Positions 1,329 to 9,577 of a stretch of DNA of 29,221 bases are shown one piece after another. A program made the position numbers and the translations under genes. This stretch comes from a virus, in IMG/VR virus record IMGVR_UViG_3300017782_000135, positions 1 through 29,221 of that record; one strand, given 5' to 3'. The notes beneath the pieces are model-generated. The model was not told the DNA's origin, searched no databases, and was given only the letters and a program-made list of their open reading frames with translations. The first letter of the stretch is position 1, and each line of letters starts with the position of its first letter.

Positions 1329-1351
1329 GGTACCATAAATAAGGAGTGTAT

Positions 1352-3496
1352 ATGATTAATTATTCAAATTCAATGTTGCCGAAATTACTCGCTAAAGAGA
1401 ATATTACGGTTCAACATGGTAACTACAAGACGGCATGGTTTGATGTCAAAGACAGGGTCCTAGGTCTTCCTCTTTGGAAAGACATGGGCAAAGATGTCTA
1501 TGATTTATTAATAGGCCATGAAGTCGGTCATGCACTAAACACACCGTATGAAGGTTGGCACGACAGCCCTGAAAAACTGAAAGGTTGCCCTAGGTCATAT
1601 ATTAATGTTGTTGAAGATGCAAGAATCGAGAGAATGGTAAAATCAAGTTACCCCGGTTTAGTTGCATCATTCCAAAGAGGTTATAAAAAGTTATATGACA
1701 ATGAGTTCTTCGGACCTATCAATAAAGTTGATTGGGACCAAGTAAAGCTTATTGATAAAATTAATCTAAAAGCTAAAATAGGTCAGTTAATAGACGTTCC
1801 TTTTACAGATGAGGAATGGGTTTACATGGATAGAGCTAACAAAACTGAGACCTTTGAAGAGGTTGTTCAGTTGGTTAAAGACATTCTTTCTTGGACCCAA
1901 GAGAATCAAGAAGAACTAATTAAAAAGCCTGAGCCAAAAACTGACGATACTGAAGAGCCAGAAATCAAAAACAATCAAGAAGATGCCGACCAAGGGCATG
2001 ATGATTACCAAGAGGAAGAGGAAGAAAAAGAATCCAATGAGGAAGAAAATTCACAATCTTCTGATGTGGAAGAAATAGAAGGTGATTCAGAAGAATCTGA
2101 AGAACCAGTTTATTCTGCAGAACCTGAACATCAAGAAGCCGATGTTTCTATTACAGACGAGGCATTTAGGGCTAAAGAATCTTCTTTGTTGGACGGAGAT
2201 GTACAAGGCAAACAGAAAGCAGTAATCAAGCCAATCGACAAATCAATTGCATCTAAAGTTGTATCAACATATAAAGAACTTAAAGAGTCAAGACAAAAAA
2301 GACTCGATGAATGTTTGTATAGTGAACAGAAATATGCAACATGGAGTTTGCCTGATTACGGTTTTAATGCGTATATCAGCGGAGTCAAGAAATCAGTTAA
2401 CTTTGCTGTTAAGGAATTTGAACAAAGAAAAGCTGCTTACCAATATCAAAGAGCTACTACAGCCAAGACGGGTGAAATTAATGTAAATGCACTATGGTCA
2501 TATAAAACCAATGATGATATTTTTCTTAAGGCGACAAGACTTGCAGATGCTAAGTCTCACGGTATGATGATGCTCATTGATTACTCTGGTTCAATGTCTG
2601 GTTCCATGAAATATGTTATGGATCAAGTTATTCACACAGTTATGTTTTGTAAGGCAGTAAACATTCCATTTGAGGTTTACGGATTTACTTCAACTAATCC
2701 TAAATTACATTGGGAACTAATGAGAAATATGCCCGGCCACATTGATATGGACGAATTATCAATGCCTCTTGTAATCTCTTCTGAATTAAAGAAGGCTGAA
2801 TTTATGGAAGCCTTGAAGTGGTTATATCAGAGAGTTGCCCCATCAGAGGGTTGGTACGAAGATTCAATCAAGGCTAAAGAAGAAGATTGGGGTTCCACTC
2901 CTCTTAATCAAGCTCTTATTATTGCAGAAGATCTAATTAAGAAATTTAAAAGAAAACATCAAGTTCAGAAAATGAATTTTGTTACTTTTACAGATGGTGA
3001 CGCGAACAGAATCTCAGTCCATCAGGACCCAAGAGCTGACATTCACACACCTTATAACAGCGGCCTAAAAATTAATGTTGGTGGTAAGTGGGTAACAACA
3101 GAGAGCTCAAACTCTAAAACAGTTACTGATGCAATCTTATCTCATATTTCTAAATTGCACGATACAAATAATATCGGATTCTTTATGGCTGAAGGTTCAG
3201 ACTGGAAGTGGAGACTGAGAGACATTGCATACTCTACCAACAAATACTGGGATGAAGCTTCGAAGGAATGGGCAAAAGAATACAGAAATAATAAGTGTGT
3301 CCATATAGAAAACATCTACGGATATAATGATTATTACATGGTTAAAGCTGGAAAGGGTCTGTCTGCTCAATCAGAAGACTTTGAGATTGCTGAGGATGCA
3401 TCAAATAATCAGATAGGTACTGCCTTTAGAAAACACGCCAAAGGCAAGAAATTAAACAAAGTCTTAATGACTAAATTCGGTAAGGCGGTAGCTTAA
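1352..3496 (+). CDS. CobT-like VWA-domain protein with N-terminal HExxH motif
   Basis: A 714-aa protein with three parts. The N-terminal region carries HEVGH at residues 56-60 and a downstream VVEDARIE (Glu88 a possible third zinc ligand), the layout of gluzincin-type metallopeptidases. A very acidic low-complexity linker runs from roughly residue 190 to 270. The C-terminal half is a von Willebrand A domain with MIDAS motif DYSGS (Asp410, Ser412, Ser414) and a later FTDGD. CobT-type chelatase subunits share the acidic-linker-plus-VWA plan and work with a MoxR/CobS AAA+ partner, which is the next gene. ATG 1352 is preferred over GTG 1346 because the GTG overlaps the AAGGAG ribosome site. A true cobalt-chelation role is doubtful; peptidase activity is inferred from the motif only. 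Confidence 0.8.
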   Translation: MINYSNSMLPKLLAKENITVQHGNYKTAWFDVKDRVLGLPLWKDMGKDVYDLLIGHEVGHALNTPYEGWHDSPEKLKGCPRSYINVVEDARIERMVKSSYPGLVASFQRGYKKLYDNEFFGPINKVDWDQVKLIDKINLKAKIGQLIDVPFTDEEWVYMDRANKTETFEEVVQLVKDILSWTQENQEELIKKPEPKTDDTEEPEIKNNQEDADQGHDDYQEEEEEKESNEEENSQSSDVEEIEGDSEESEEPVYSAEPEHQEADVSITDEAFRAKESSLLDGDVQGKQKAVIKPIDKSIASKVVSTYKELKESRQKRLDECLYSEQKYATWSLPDYGFNAYISGVKKSVNFAVKEFEQRKAAYQYQRATTAKTGEINVNALWSYKTNDDIFLKATRLADAKSHGMMMLIDYSGSMSGSMKYVMDQVIHTVMFCKAVNIPFEVYGFTSTNPKLHWELMRNMPGHIDMDELSMPLVISSELKKAEFMEALKWLYQRVAPSEGWYEDSIKAKEEDWGSTPLNQALIIAEDLIKKFKRKHQVQKMNFVTFTDGDANRISVHQDPRADIHTPYNSGLKINVGGKWVTTESSNSKTVTDAILSHISKLHDTNNIGFFMAEGSDWKWRLRDIAYSTNKYWDEASKEWAKEYRNNKCVHIENIYGYNDYYMVKAGKGLSAQSEDFEIAEDASNNQIGTAFRKHAKGKKLNKVLMTKFGKAVA

Positions 3497-3504
3497 TTAA
3501 TATG

Positions 3505-3530
3505 GTTATAAAGGATATGTGGTTTATAAC
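3505..3530 (+). other. AT-rich inverted repeat after the VWA gene
   Basis: GTTATAAA (3505-3512) and TTTATAAC (3523-3530) are perfect 8-base inverted arms around a 10-nt loop, starting eight bases after the stop codon. There is no T-run after it, so it is a poor intrinsic terminator; mRNA 3'-end protection or a protein site are alternatives. A weaker GTTATA/TATAAC pair lies just before repeat copy C (around 26603-26628). Confidence 0.45.
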
Positions 3531-3533
3531 AAC

Positions 3534-3610
3534 AAAATATAAGAAAAGCGTACAAAAAGTGCAATTATTTTACATAAGCGTGTTTACAAATATGCTCAGT
3601 GTGATATAAT
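3534..3610 (+). repeat. promoter-upstream repeat, copy B
   Basis: Second copy of the element. The shared 18-base core is at 3554-3571 and GCGTG at 3578-3582, followed by a -35 to -10 segment identical to copy A. It differs from A and C just after the core, where TTTTCACT is TTTTACAT, so the AAGTG/CACTT inverted repeat is broken in this copy. Confidence 0.85.
3583..3610 (+). promoter_or_regulatory. sigma70-like promoter of the CobS-like AAA+ gene
   Basis: TTTACA (3583-3588), a 16-bp spacer, and TATAAT (3605-3610) with TGTGA ahead of the -10. Base-for-base the same as the promoter at 1301-1328. Confidence 0.9.
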
Positions 3611-3644
3611 ATACATATAAATTAATGAAGGAGTGAATTATATT

Positions 3645-4790
3645 ATGAATAACGTGAAAATTTCAACACAAAACATCGTCAAGAAATTGGCAGAACAATA
3701 TCCGGATCAAACAGAGTTCAGGAAGAACCTGATTGTTTCCGCGGCCGAATCTCTTGGCTATAAAGGATCCGATTGGTATCCTCTTTGCGACGCAGAGAAT
3801 AGGGTCAAGATCGGTACATACGATCTCAGTGCAATGATTATCCCACTTAGGGATTCCATCACTGAATCATCAACCACACAGGCTAATACGGCTCTATCAA
3901 TGCAGTCTATTGTAAACCAAGAAAGGTCTATGGCAAAAGTTGATTCAACCTTTGTACCATGGGGTTCATATTCTGATTTGGTAAAAATTATTAAATCAGA
4001 AATGTTTTATCCTACATACATTTCAGGTCTATCAGGAAACGGTAAAACCTTCATGGTAGAACAAGCGGCAGCTAAGCTCAATAGAGAGTTTATTAGAGTT
4101 CAGATTAACCCAGAAACAGACGAGGACGATTTACTTGGTGGATTCAGACTTATTAATGGAGAAACTGTATTCTCTAAAGGTCCAGTGCTTAAGGCAATGG
4201 AGAACGGCGCAATCTTATTGCTCGATGAAATTGATAGAGCTACAAATAAAATTATGTGTTTGCAAGGTATACTTGAAGGTAAACCTGTTGTGGTTAAAAA
4301 GACAGGTGAAACAATTTCTCCAGCGACTGGATTTAATGTTATAGCCACAGCCAACACCAAAGGTAAGGGCTCAGAAGATGGCAGATTTACCGCGGCCACA
4401 ATTATTGATGACGCTTTCCTTGAAAGATTCACAGTGGCAATTGACCAGAAATTCCCATCGGTCTCTATTGAAAAGAAAATCGTAGGGAAACATATGGACA
4501 AGTTTGGTAAAACAGACGAGGAATTTGCAGATAAACTTGTTACCTGGGCCGATATTATCAGAAAAACTTTTTATGATGATGGCGTAGATGAAGTTATTTC
4601 AACCAGAAGGTTGTGTCACATTGTCCAGACTTATTCTATCTTTGGAGACAAGATGAAGTCTATTGACCTATGTATCGCAAGATTTGATGATGATACTAAG
4701 GCGGCTTTCCTTGATCTTTACACTAAGGTAGATGATGGTGTAATTACTAATGAAACAACAACTGAGGAAAACAATGAAGCAAACTTCTAA
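3645..4790 (+). CDS. cobS: CobS/MoxR-like AAA+ ATPase
   Basis: A 381-aa AAA+ protein. Walker A is GLSGNGKT (residues 128-135), Walker B ILLLDEID (190-197), a sensor-1-like IATANT follows, and then the DDAFLERF segment typical of the MoxR/CobS clade. T4-like marine phages commonly carry this gene annotated cobS, after the ATPase subunit of aerobic cobaltochelatase. Here it follows a VWA-domain gene, the usual partner of MoxR-type ATPases, so the pair may be a remodelling machine acting on a protein. ATG 3645 is chosen because the upstream GTG 3633 overlaps the AAGGAG site. Its 3' end overlaps the next gene by 17 bases. The symbol follows phage usage and does not imply cobalamin synthesis. Confidence 0.85.
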   Translation: MNNVKISTQNIVKKLAEQYPDQTEFRKNLIVSAAESLGYKGSDWYPLCDAENRVKIGTYDLSAMIIPLRDSITESSTTQANTALSMQSIVNQERSMAKVDSTFVPWGSYSDLVKIIKSEMFYPTYISGLSGNGKTFMVEQAAAKLNREFIRVQINPETDEDDLLGGFRLINGETVFSKGPVLKAMENGAILLLDEIDRATNKIMCLQGILEGKPVVVKKTGETISPATGFNVIATANTKGKGSEDGRFTAATIIDDAFLERFTVAIDQKFPSVSIEKKIVGKHMDKFGKTDEEFADKLVTWADIIRKTFYDDGVDEVISTRRLCHIVQTYSIFGDKMKSIDLCIARFDDDTKAAFLDLYTKVDDGVITNETTTEENNEANF

Positions 4791-5112: not shown

Positions 5113-5142
5113 ATACATATTAAAAAAATGGAGAAACGCATT

Positions 5143-5811
5143 ATGCAACTAAGTGAAGAAACACTTGCCCTATTACAAAACTTTGCCTCGATTAATCCGA
5201 ACATTGTTTTGAAACCAGGTCAAGAAATTAAAACTATTTCCGAGGCCAAGAATATTCTTGCAACAGCTTCGGTTGTCGAGGACTTTCCATCAGACCTAGG
5301 TATTTATGACCTTAATGAGTTCTTAAGTGTACTCAGTCTGATTGATAATCCAACTCTAAATTTTACAGAGAAATCTGTGAAAGTAAGTGGTACTGGAACA
5401 GGGGTAAATTATTACCTTGCTGAACCTAGTATCTTAACCGCTCCTGAAAGGGACATCACAATGCCAAACGCCGAGGTTACTGTTGAACTAACCGAAGAAA
5501 AACTTCTGAAGGCTAAAAAGGCAGCGTCAGTGCTTGGTCACTTGGATCTTGCTTTCGTTGGAAACGACGAAGGGATTTCTATTAAAGTGTTCGATCCTAA
5601 AGATGCTAGTGCAAATACATTTGACCTAGCTCTCGGAGAAAATACGACTGGGCAAACTTTTAGTTTCATCATGAACATTTCAAATCTGAAAATCATTGAT
5701 GGCGACTATGAAGTACAAATTTCATCAAAACTCATTTCAAAGTGGGTGAACAAAACTAAACCGGTAAGTTACTTTATTGCTTTGGAAAAAAGTTCAACGT
5801 TTGGTGTATAA
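5143..5811 (+). CDS. 45: gp45-like DNA polymerase sliding clamp
   Basis: A 222-aa homologue of the T4 processivity clamp (T4 gp45 is 228 aa). The N-terminus MQLSEETLALLQNFASIN aligns with the start of T4 gp45 (MKLSKDTTALLKNFATIN), which fixes the start at ATG 5143 rather than ATG 5128; GGAG at 5130-5133 fits as its ribosome site. The trimeric ring tethers gp43 to DNA and in T4 also activates late transcription with gp33 and gp55. The loader subunits gp44 and gp62 lie downstream. A late promoter overlaps its stop codon. Confidence 0.95.
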   Translation: MQLSEETLALLQNFASINPNIVLKPGQEIKTISEAKNILATASVVEDFPSDLGIYDLNEFLSVLSLIDNPTLNFTEKSVKVSGTGTGVNYYLAEPSILTAPERDITMPNAEVTVELTEEKLLKAKKAASVLGHLDLAFVGNDEGISIKVFDPKDASANTFDLALGENTTGQTFSFIMNISNLKIIDGDYEVQISSKLISKWVNKTKPVSYFIALEKSSTFGV

Positions 5812-6206: not shown

Positions 6207-6464
6207 ATGCAAAAAAGTGAATTACAAAGCCTTATTAAGGCACTACAAGAAGGTATCGTATATGTTACCTTTACCAAAATCGGCTCCGGCGAAGTCCGCA
6301 GAATGGAGTCCACACTCAAACCCGAAATACTAAAAGAAGCAGGTATTGCTGCTACAGTAGAAAAAATCAGTCCTGAATCTGATCATGTTGCCGTATGGTG
6401 TCTTGATAAGACTGCATGGCGTTCTTTTCGAGTTGAAACTGTTACAGGTTGGGAGGTAGCATAA
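6207..6464 (+). CDS. WYL_2/Sm-like (DUF2693) small protein
   Basis: An 85-aa protein from ATG 6207 with CAGGA at 6196-6200. The segments VYVTFTKIGSGEVRRMESTL and VWCLDKTAWRSFRVETVTGW match my memory of the DUF2693/WYL_2 family, phage proteins with a predicted Sm-like SH3 beta-barrel, often adjacent to replication genes. Nucleic-acid or ligand binding is plausible but unproven. Its TAA overlaps the ATG of gp44 (TAATG), so the two are translationally coupled. The structured element upstream forms most of the preceding gap. Confidence 0.7.
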   Translation: MQKSELQSLIKALQEGIVYVTFTKIGSGEVRRMESTLKPEILKEAGIAATVEKISPESDHVAVWCLDKTAWRSFRVETVTGWEVA

Positions 6465-7399
6465 TGGAAGAATTTTTATGGGTCGAAAAATATCGGCCCC
6501 AAACAGTTGCAGATACTATCTTACCAAAGCCATTAAAGTCTACATTTCAGACAATTGTAAATACAGGTGAAATACCTAATTTATTGTTTACTGGAACAGC
6601 TGGCGTTGGTAGAACAACTGTTGCTAAGGCGTTATGTAACCAGCTAGGACTTGATTATCTACTGATTAACGGATCAGAAGAGGGTAACATTGATACACTG
6701 CGTAATAAAATTAAACATTTCGCATCAACAGTATCCTTGCAAGGTGGTTATAAAGTTGTAATACTTGATGAGGCAGATTATCTAAACCCACAGTCAACTC
6801 AACCTGCTTTACGTGGATTCATTGAAGAGTTCAGTAACAACTGTAGATTCATAATGACCTGTAACTTTAAAAACAGAATCATTGAACCACTACACTCTCG
6901 TTGTTCAGTAGTTGAATTTAATATTGCTAAGAAAGACATGCCAGACCTATGTGGTTCATTCATGAAGCGTGTGGGTAATATTTTATCTAATGAAAATATA
7001 GAGTATGATGAACCAGTAATCGCTGAATTAATCATGAAGCATATGCCAGATTGGCGCCGTGTTTTAAATGAATTGCAACGATACTCGGTATCGGGTAAAA
7101 TCGACACAGGCATTCTTGTATCACTATCAGAAGTCTCTATGGGTAACCTAATGTCTGCTATGAAGGACAAGAACTTTAAAAAGATGCGACAATGGGTAAC
7201 GGATAACATTGATCAAGAACCGGCTTCATTGTTTCGTAAAATTTATGATAATATGTCCGACTATGTTAAACCACAATCTATTCCACAGCTAGTGCTTATT
7301 CTTGCTGATTATCAGTACAAGAATAGTTTTGTTGCTGACCACGAATTAAATATGGTTGCATGTTGTACAGAAATCATGGCAGCAGTGGAGTTTAATTAA
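6464..7399 (+). CDS. 44: gp44-like clamp loader ATPase subunit
   Basis: A 311-aa AAA+ protein close to T4 gp44 (319 aa). It has VEKYRPQTVADTILP near the N-terminus, Walker A at residues 43-52, Walker B VVILDEAD (98-105), and the SRC arginine-finger motif (Ser145-Arg146-Cys147), all typical of clamp loaders. Four gp44 subunits with one gp62 load gp45 onto primed DNA. One oddity: the Walker A lysine is Arg50 (codon AGA at 6611-6613), giving GTAGVGRTT where the family has GKT. Everything else looks intact, so the gene is probably functional. ATG 6464 overlaps the upstream stop, with GGGAGG at 6451-6456. Confidence 0.95.
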   Translation: MEEFLWVEKYRPQTVADTILPKPLKSTFQTIVNTGEIPNLLFTGTAGVGRTTVAKALCNQLGLDYLLINGSEEGNIDTLRNKIKHFASTVSLQGGYKVVILDEADYLNPQSTQPALRGFIEEFSNNCRFIMTCNFKNRIIEPLHSRCSVVEFNIAKKDMPDLCGSFMKRVGNILSNENIEYDEPVIAELIMKHMPDWRRVLNELQRYSVSGKIDTGILVSLSEVSMGNLMSAMKDKNFKKMRQWVTDNIDQEPASLFRKIYDNMSDYVKPQSIPQLVLILADYQYKNSFVADHELNMVACCTEIMAAVEFN

Positions 7400-7524: not shown

Positions 7525-7675
7525 GTATTGGAAATTGTGGGCAAAATCCCTAGGCGAAAAGTCTGGTACCACTGACCATGAAGCAGATGTAATTGCTTTA
7601 ATGCGAAGTGTGATTGTCCTAGTAAATTTTCTAACTTGTTTCTTTATTATAGCAGGAGTGATACATCAATGGTAA
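7511..7675 (+). CDS. small single-pass membrane protein
   Basis: A 54-aa ORF from ATG 7511, overlapping the coiled-coil gene before it and the dCMP deaminase after it. The N-terminal half is polar with KYWKLWAKSLGEKSG; the C-terminal half holds one hydrophobic helix (about residues 33-50, VIVLVNFLTCFFIIAGV). Similar peptides lie near the clamp loader in T4-like cyanophages (recollection). The tight overlaps on both sides support its being real. Role unknown. Confidence 0.7.
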   Translation: MKRNKYWKLWAKSLGEKSGTTDHEADVIALMRSVIVLVNFLTCFFIIAGVIHQW

Positions 7676-8079
7676 ATAAGTGGAAACGTGCATTCATGGA
7701 AACTGCTAATATTTTTGGCAAGTTATCCCATGCACAACGTGCTCAAGTCGGCGCTGCTATCGTAAAAGATAACAGAATTATATCTGTTGGATATAATGGA
7801 ATGCCAGCGGGCTGGGATAACACATGCGAAGTTGATAATGTTACTAAACCAGAAGTCTTGCATGCAGAAACAAATGCTATTGCTAAAGTGGCCCGATCAG
7901 CAGAATCATGTGAAGGTGCTGACATTTATACAACCTATGCTCCTTGCATTGATTGTGCTAAACTGATATATCAATCGGGTATAAGTAAAGTTTATTATGC
8001 AAACGACCACATGCGTTCAACAGCAGGAGTTGATTTCCTGCATAAATGTGATATTGAGGTAACCCATGTCCCCATTTGA
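7669..8079 (+). CDS. cd: deoxycytidylate (dCMP) deaminase
   Basis: A 136-aa zinc-dependent deaminase of the CDA fold. HAETNAIAK (His65, Glu67) supplies one zinc ligand and the catalytic glutamate; PCIDC (Cys93, Cys96) supplies the other two ligands. dCMP deaminase converts dCMP to dUMP, the substrate of thymidylate synthase, and a ThyX lies at 25952. ATG 7669 is preferred over upstream in-frame codons because AGGAG (7654-7658) precedes it and conserved sequence starts there (MVNKWKRAFM). The length is typical of bacterial and phage enzymes. It overlaps gp62 at its 3' end. Confidence 0.93.
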   Translation: MVNKWKRAFMETANIFGKLSHAQRAQVGAAIVKDNRIISVGYNGMPAGWDNTCEVDNVTKPEVLHAETNAIAKVARSAESCEGADIYTTYAPCIDCAKLIYQSGISKVYYANDHMRSTAGVDFLHKCDIEVTHVPI

Positions 8080-8446
8080 TTATGTAAACGATATAACATA
8101 CGGCAAGAAAGGCATCATGGTTGATGATATTGCCGAAAAGAATTACAATGCTTTTATTATAAATCGTTCATTATCCTATCACAATGATACGGTACTATTT
8201 GCTAATGAGATGAATATACATCATACTATAGACAGCCGCCTTCAGTATGATTTTTTTATAAATATAATCAGGAAACAGAAAAGATGGTCCAAATGGATGA
8301 AGCCATCGGAAGTTTCTGATTTGGATCTCATCAAAGAATATTATGGATATAGTAATGAAAAGGCTAAGTCCGTATTAAAATTATTAAATGATGAAAAAAT
8401 TAACGAATTGAAAAATAGGATTTATAAAGGTGGAAAACGAAAATAA
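8066..8446 (+). CDS. 62: gp62-like clamp loader small subunit
   Basis: A 126-aa protein with no ATPase motif, shorter than T4 gp62 (187 aa). Identification rests on position between the clamp loader block and regA (T4 order 44-62-regA) and on segments resembling gp62 of marine T4-like phages: MSPFDYVNDI, NRSLSYHNDTVLFANEMN and KRWSKWMK, a counterpart of the KRYGKWAK segment of T4. It joins gp44 in the loader complex. ATG 8066 has GAGG at 8056-8059 and overlaps the dCMP deaminase by 14 bases. Function inferred with good confidence. Confidence 0.85.
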   Translation: MSPFDYVNDITYGKKGIMVDDIAEKNYNAFIINRSLSYHNDTVLFANEMNIHHTIDSRLQYDFFINIIRKQKRWSKWMKPSEVSDLDLIKEYYGYSNEKAKSVLKLLNDEKINELKNRIYKGGKRK

Positions 8447-8855
8447 AGAAGTCAAAAATTGGACTCCAGCAGAAATGCTTGAAGTCTCCCTCAACGAACC
8501 AGATGATTTTTTAAAAATTAGAGAAACATTAACACGAATTGGTGTTGCCTCTAGGAAAGATCAAAAGCTATTCCAATCATGTCATATTCTGCATAAACAA
8601 GGCAGGTATTTCATTGTGCATTTTAAAGAGCTATTTCTGTTAGATGGTAAACCAAGTAATTTAATCGAAAACGACTTAGAACGTAGGAACACAATTGCTA
8701 CATTACTAGCAGATTGGGGATTAGTAAGTATTATTAATACTAAAGTCTCAACTCCATGTGCACCTTTAAGACAGATTAAAGTTATTCCATTTAAAGAAAA
8801 GACACAATGGGAATTATGCCCAAAATATAATATAGGTAATTCAAATAAGGAATAA
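8430..8855 (+). CDS. regA: RegA-like translational repressor
   Basis: Close in sequence to T4 RegA, an RNA-binding protein that represses translation of early phage mRNAs, including its own and the clamp/clamp-loader genes. Conserved segments include DFLKIRETLTRIG, LFQSCHILHKQGRYFIVHFKEL, the ADWGL motif, and a C-terminal PKYNIGN like the end of T4 RegA. The start is uncertain. GTG 8430 has TAGGA at 8416-8420 and gives a 15-residue extension. ATG 8475 (MLEVSLNEPDDF) aligns with the T4 N-terminus but lacks a clear ribosome site; weak initiation would fit autogenous control. Confidence 0.93.
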   Translation: MENENKEVKNWTPAEMLEVSLNEPDDFLKIRETLTRIGVASRKDQKLFQSCHILHKQGRYFIVHFKELFLLDGKPSNLIENDLERRNTIATLLADWGLVSIINTKVSTPCAPLRQIKVIPFKEKTQWELCPKYNIGNSNKE

Positions 8856-8896: not shown

Positions 8897-9577
8897 ATGG
8901 CACTACAATCATCAGGCACAATGTCCATGTTTGACATTTCAAACGAATTTGGTGGATATTCTTATCCGCCTGTAGAAATAGATGACTACATGGCAGCCGA
9001 TCCTGTAAATCAACCGAGTTATGGAAACGCAGTTGGTACTGCAGTTGATTTTGCTGATTTTTATGGCACTAGTATAAAAACAACTCGACTTGCCGTTCGA
9101 CCTAATAATGATAGCTATCTCAGATATGGTTATTCCAAAACTAACGGATACTTTTATTTTATGTCCGAGAGTGGGCAGTCTGGTACTGCTTTCGGAACAT
9201 CAACTCGAAATAGTGCACTTGCATCCGGTAGTAGGACTCTTTCATGTATCGTAATGAATGACGGGTACTATGATTATCTTACAATAGGTTTTTATGGCGG
9301 CAGCAGCTCGACCAATGGTGGTTGGACTTCGGCCACATTTTATGATCATCAAAGTTCTCCTCCATATAGAGCAGACTTAACCAGTGGTATTACAATTAAT
9401 AGAACAGATGCTGTTAATTTTACTGCGCTACCAAATACGAGCCCTACAGTATATGGTTATAGATTTGGATTTGCGGGTGTTAACACCACGGCCGCGGTCA
9501 ATGCCGCAAACGTAGCGTCGTTAATAAAAGCCAATGCTACCGTGACACCTTATTACGTATACGTAGAATTTACTTAG
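8897..9577 (+). CDS. tail-fibre-like virion protein
   Basis: A 226-aa protein whose N-terminus (MALQSSGTMSMFDISNEFGG, then a YGNAVGTAVDFADFYGTS segment) resembles the short N-terminal motif on many phage fibre and baseplate-associated proteins (SG-ISMSDI--EFGG then ISLSDFYG). The remainder is rich in Gly, Ser, Thr, Tyr and Asn with beta-strand character, typical of receptor-binding or fibre tips. It starts behind AGGAG (8883-8887) and a late promoter. The next gene encodes a tail-fibre assembly-type chaperone, which supports the assignment. The receptor is unknown and the exact virion position is inferred. Confidence 0.7.
   Translation: MALQSSGTMSMFDISNEFGGYSYPPVEIDDYMAADPVNQPSYGNAVGTAVDFADFYGTSIKTTRLAVRPNNDSYLRYGYSKTNGYFYFMSESGQSGTAFGTSTRNSALASGSRTLSCIVMNDGYYDYLTIGFYGGSSSTNGGWTSATFYDHQSSPPYRADLTSGITINRTDAVNFTALPNTSPTVYGYRFGFAGVNTTAAVNAANVASLIKANATVTPYYVYVEFT

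Follow-up and report, generated by a model that had tools for sequence, protein, structure and literature searches.

The gene at positions 6464–7399 of the window (the whole 29,221-nucleotide stretch of viral DNA analyzed here) is a real and ordinary T4-type gp44, a clamp-loader ATPase subunit, and its codon 50 specifies arginine at the position of the Walker A lysine. On sequence comparison, this private A-to-G change is very probably an error of sequencing, amplification or assembly or, next in likelihood, a rare deleterious allele that would be present in the sampled population and not maintained; the working lineage would then carry lysine. We infer that base 6612 is erroneous or transient, and the arginine is best read as no trait of the phage lineage.

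The gene lies on the plus strand, starts with ATG and encodes an AAA+ protein of 311 amino acids with the N-terminus MEEFLWVEKYRPQ. Its match to phrog_168 spans residues 1–310 (E = 3.4e-121), so that it belongs to the family over its full length. Both the AAA and the Gp44_lid families of Pfam were matched, and T4 gp44 in PDB 3U5Z matched with E = 1.9e-49. By translation and by alignment to 3U5Z, the Walker A motif, or P-loop, is GTAGVGRTTV (residues 44–53, positions 6593–6622, plus strand). The Walker B motif VVILDEAD (residues 98–105, 6755–6778) and the SRC arginine-finger motif (residues 145–147, 6896–6904), both on the plus strand, are intact by translation and by comparison with relatives, as is the sensor-1 TCN. 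The first-pass annotation had described Walker B and the arginine finger as intact, and the comparison bears this out: D102, E103, R146 and C147 were identical in all 80 relatives. Nor did the rest of gp44 or the neighboring genes show a frameshift or any further hint of low base quality, which speaks against an error.

The surroundings are likewise those of a T4-type clamp-loader gene. On the same strand, gp44 is preceded by the gp45 sliding clamp (5128–5811; gp45-slide_C, phrog_223) and followed by the gp62 clasp subunit of the clamp loader (8066–8446; Phage_clamp_A, phrog_225) and by the translational repressor RegA (8430–8855; phrog_242). The order gp45, gp44, gp62, regA is the usual one of the T4-like replisome cluster, and the source is a marine Kyanoviridae-like phage. 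The predicted role of this gp44 would be ATP-dependent loading of gp45. Four gp44 subunits and one gp62 would bind ATP and open the gp45 ring, the ring would then be closed on primer-template DNA, and ATP hydrolysis would let it go. Compared with T4 gp44 in 3U5Z, the window protein shares full-length homology, the AAA+ domain, the Gp44 lid, Walker B, the SRC finger and the neighbors gp45, gp62 and regA, and differs in having Arg rather than Lys in Walker A. The same difference separates it from gp44 of Phage C48C1 (OQ984149, Kyanoviridae), which has 68.8% amino acid identity and the same gene cluster but a Walker A motif, GSAGTGKTT, with Lys.

Codon 50 (6611–6613, plus strand) reads AGA in the context LLFTGTAGVGRTTVAKALCN, and its residue aligns with the lysine of GTGKTT in T4 gp44 (PDB 3U5Z). 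The arginine in the P-loop GTAGVGRTT, as the first-pass annotation had called it, was thus confirmed by the sequence, the translation and the 3U5Z alignment, and that annotation had also named the gene correctly as gp44. AGA differs from AAA by one base, at position 6612 (A-to-G), and the lysine of the GxGK[T/S] pattern of T4-type gp44 is lacking in the window record alone.

We compared the window with the 80 closest gp44 loci among IMG/VR viral contigs; the search may omit the genome of the window itself and those very close to it, and a second Arg50 record could thereby be missed. Codon 50 encodes lysine in 80 of 80 relatives (AAA in 73, AAG in 7), and AGA occurs in the window alone. The first-pass annotation had counted uniform lysine among close relatives, together with an unsupported read, as telling against the arginine; the uniform lysine is what the alignment returned. 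Even the nearest contig (L002), 97.8% identical over 5.7 kb, has AAA, and in L001, L002 and L022 the codon, again AAA, differs from that of the window by base 6612 alone. With 98.7% amino acid identity and the same gene order, the gp44 of L001 and of L002 is practically the same protein as that of the window except for Lys50. Since it is one base from a family to which it is more than 98% identical at the protein level, we do not place the window gp44 in a family of its own but read it as a member that is probably damaged or misread.

Wider searches gave the same picture. Lysine was present at 206 of 206 homologous places in the fetched contigs (174 distinct 123-base contexts) and in six isolate phages of 55–69% identity (C48C1, Melnitz-3, DLP_6, HTVC008M, SynMITS9220M01 and P-SSM2), and no clade with Arg50 was found among the 80 nearest relatives, these 206 places and the six isolates. 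When IMG/VR was scanned for the exact context with either A or G permitted at 6612, only the contigs of L002 and L022 matched, and both have A. Three degenerate-pattern scans, limited to particular motif contexts, found no clamp loader with an arginine version of Walker A in IMG/VR; the lysine counterpart of the first pattern had at least 120 matches, a lower-bound denominator. None of the 13 matches to the arginine patterns was a clamp loader: they comprised frames open by chance, structural-like proteins with repeats and a single short P-loop protein resembling kinases. The last of these (L213) is a 198-amino-acid frame starting IAMKIFVVGMPGSGRTTVAKALCQ on a 95.7-kb contig, in which Arg occupies the Walker A lysine position (4661–4692, minus strand).

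As a lone deviation K50R is notable, since all 80 relatives have lysine in this column, but a single base of a single record gives it no significance as a trait of the population. When gp44 is aligned with these relatives, 156 columns are strictly invariant and another 10 deviate in exactly one sequence. Among the latter, K50R is the only one due to the window. The other nine are due to other contigs, and private changes at conserved columns are therefore not rare in such assemblies. With some 166 near-invariant columns and many windows read, an occasional deviation at a catalytic column would be expected. The same collection does contain isolated damage at the base level: another gp44 (L059, 3001–3930) has a stop codon, TAG, at codon 6 of an otherwise intact frame, whereas the window codon is TGG (Trp); this TAG might reflect a base error, a damaged allele or a later start. 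Between the window gene and the gp44 of L001, 71 codons differ synonymously and 4 non-synonymously. This implies strong purifying selection, with which a change at one of the most constrained residues is out of keeping.

What is known of related loaders suggests how an arginine here might act. In clamp loaders, ATP binding drives binding of the clamp and DNA, and hydrolysis drives release (PMC3740443). In T4 gp44, the residues most sensitive to mutation are reported to cluster at the ATP sites (PMC8121543); the text of that deep-mutagenesis paper emphasizes that ATP-site residues are extremely sensitive, and no passage was found in it that gives a fitness value for the lysine-to-arginine change. 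In the AAA+ loader DnaC, the Walker A substitution K112R abolished ATPase activity (PMC8213410). Yeast rfc4-K55R strains are viable and are sensitive to damage and replication stress (PMC5625722), a limited parallel because the change affects a single ATPase subunit among several and the others keep lysine.

These observations bear on whether K50R could be real and fixed, with a loader that works with Arg in four identical gp44 sites, uses ATP more weakly or slowly and is possibly compensated elsewhere. We consider this unlikely. In its favor, the reading frame is open and no other AAA+ motif is impaired, Arg is positively charged like Lys, the exchange can be tolerated in some loaders, as the viable yeast strain illustrates, and a GxGRTT P-loop exists naturally in the unrelated phage protein L213. 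However, the arginine is common to no relative, even at 97.8% DNA identity, and the equivalent change in DnaC removes the ATPase activity. The T4 complex is gp44(4):gp62(1), with every ATPase subunit supplied by the single gene 44; no ATP site would therefore be spared, none would retain lysine, and Arg50, if real, would probably impair the loader. Neither is there a sign of compensation. No private second-site change accompanies K50R in gp44, gp45 or gp62, and at otherwise invariant columns of gp45, gp62, regA, ORF6207 and the AAA gene upstream none was found. The window and the nearest contig have identical gp62 (100%). I139, G171 and S255, the other gp44 differences from that contig, each occur in several lysine-bearing relatives; these three and I179 were considered as compensating candidates and rejected, all being present in relatives with lysine. 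The earlier suggestions of a functional subunit with altered ATP use, or of a compensating change elsewhere, thus found no support.

Degenerate Walker A motifs occur in non-catalytic clamp-loader subunits, and the window gene could in principle be such a paralogue, like RFC5 or delta-prime, with a second, catalytic gp44 elsewhere in the genome. We regard this as highly improbable: the 29-kb record holds one gp44 match, six longer relative contigs (32–130 kb) hold one each, with K, the residues of Walker B and of the arginine finger are retained, and the gene order gp45-gp44-gp62-regA is canonical. An ordinary gp44 with a private error or unmaintained allele thus remains our preferred reading. 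That all four ATPase subunits of a natural phage clamp loader should function with a Walker A arginine appears unlikely. If true, it would mean that the P-loop lysine is replaceable in a homotetrameric AAA+ loader, and a fixed and functional Arg50 would be a rare departure, found in nature, from the residue that P-loop ATPases conserve most strongly. On present evidence, the case mainly cautions that an unexpected residue in a single metagenome-assembled contig should be checked against reads and close relatives before it is interpreted.

Three further features of the window were noted. A dCMP-deaminase-family gene (7672–8076) lies between gp44 and gp62 and was detected in 5 of the 80 gp44 loci, many of which are short; it appears to be an insertion peculiar to close relatives of the window. 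The gene after regA (8897–9577) has no Pfam match, and 16 of its first 86 codons differ non-synonymously from those of L002, whereas gp62 and RegA are 100% identical between the two; this suggests that its product may be a diversifying or recombining virion-type protein. Upstream, the region 1346–4790 encodes a 716-amino-acid protein without a Pfam match, followed by a MoxR/CbbQ-like AAA_5 ATPase, a pair that we take to resemble the CobT/CobS-like pairs of marine T4-like phages.
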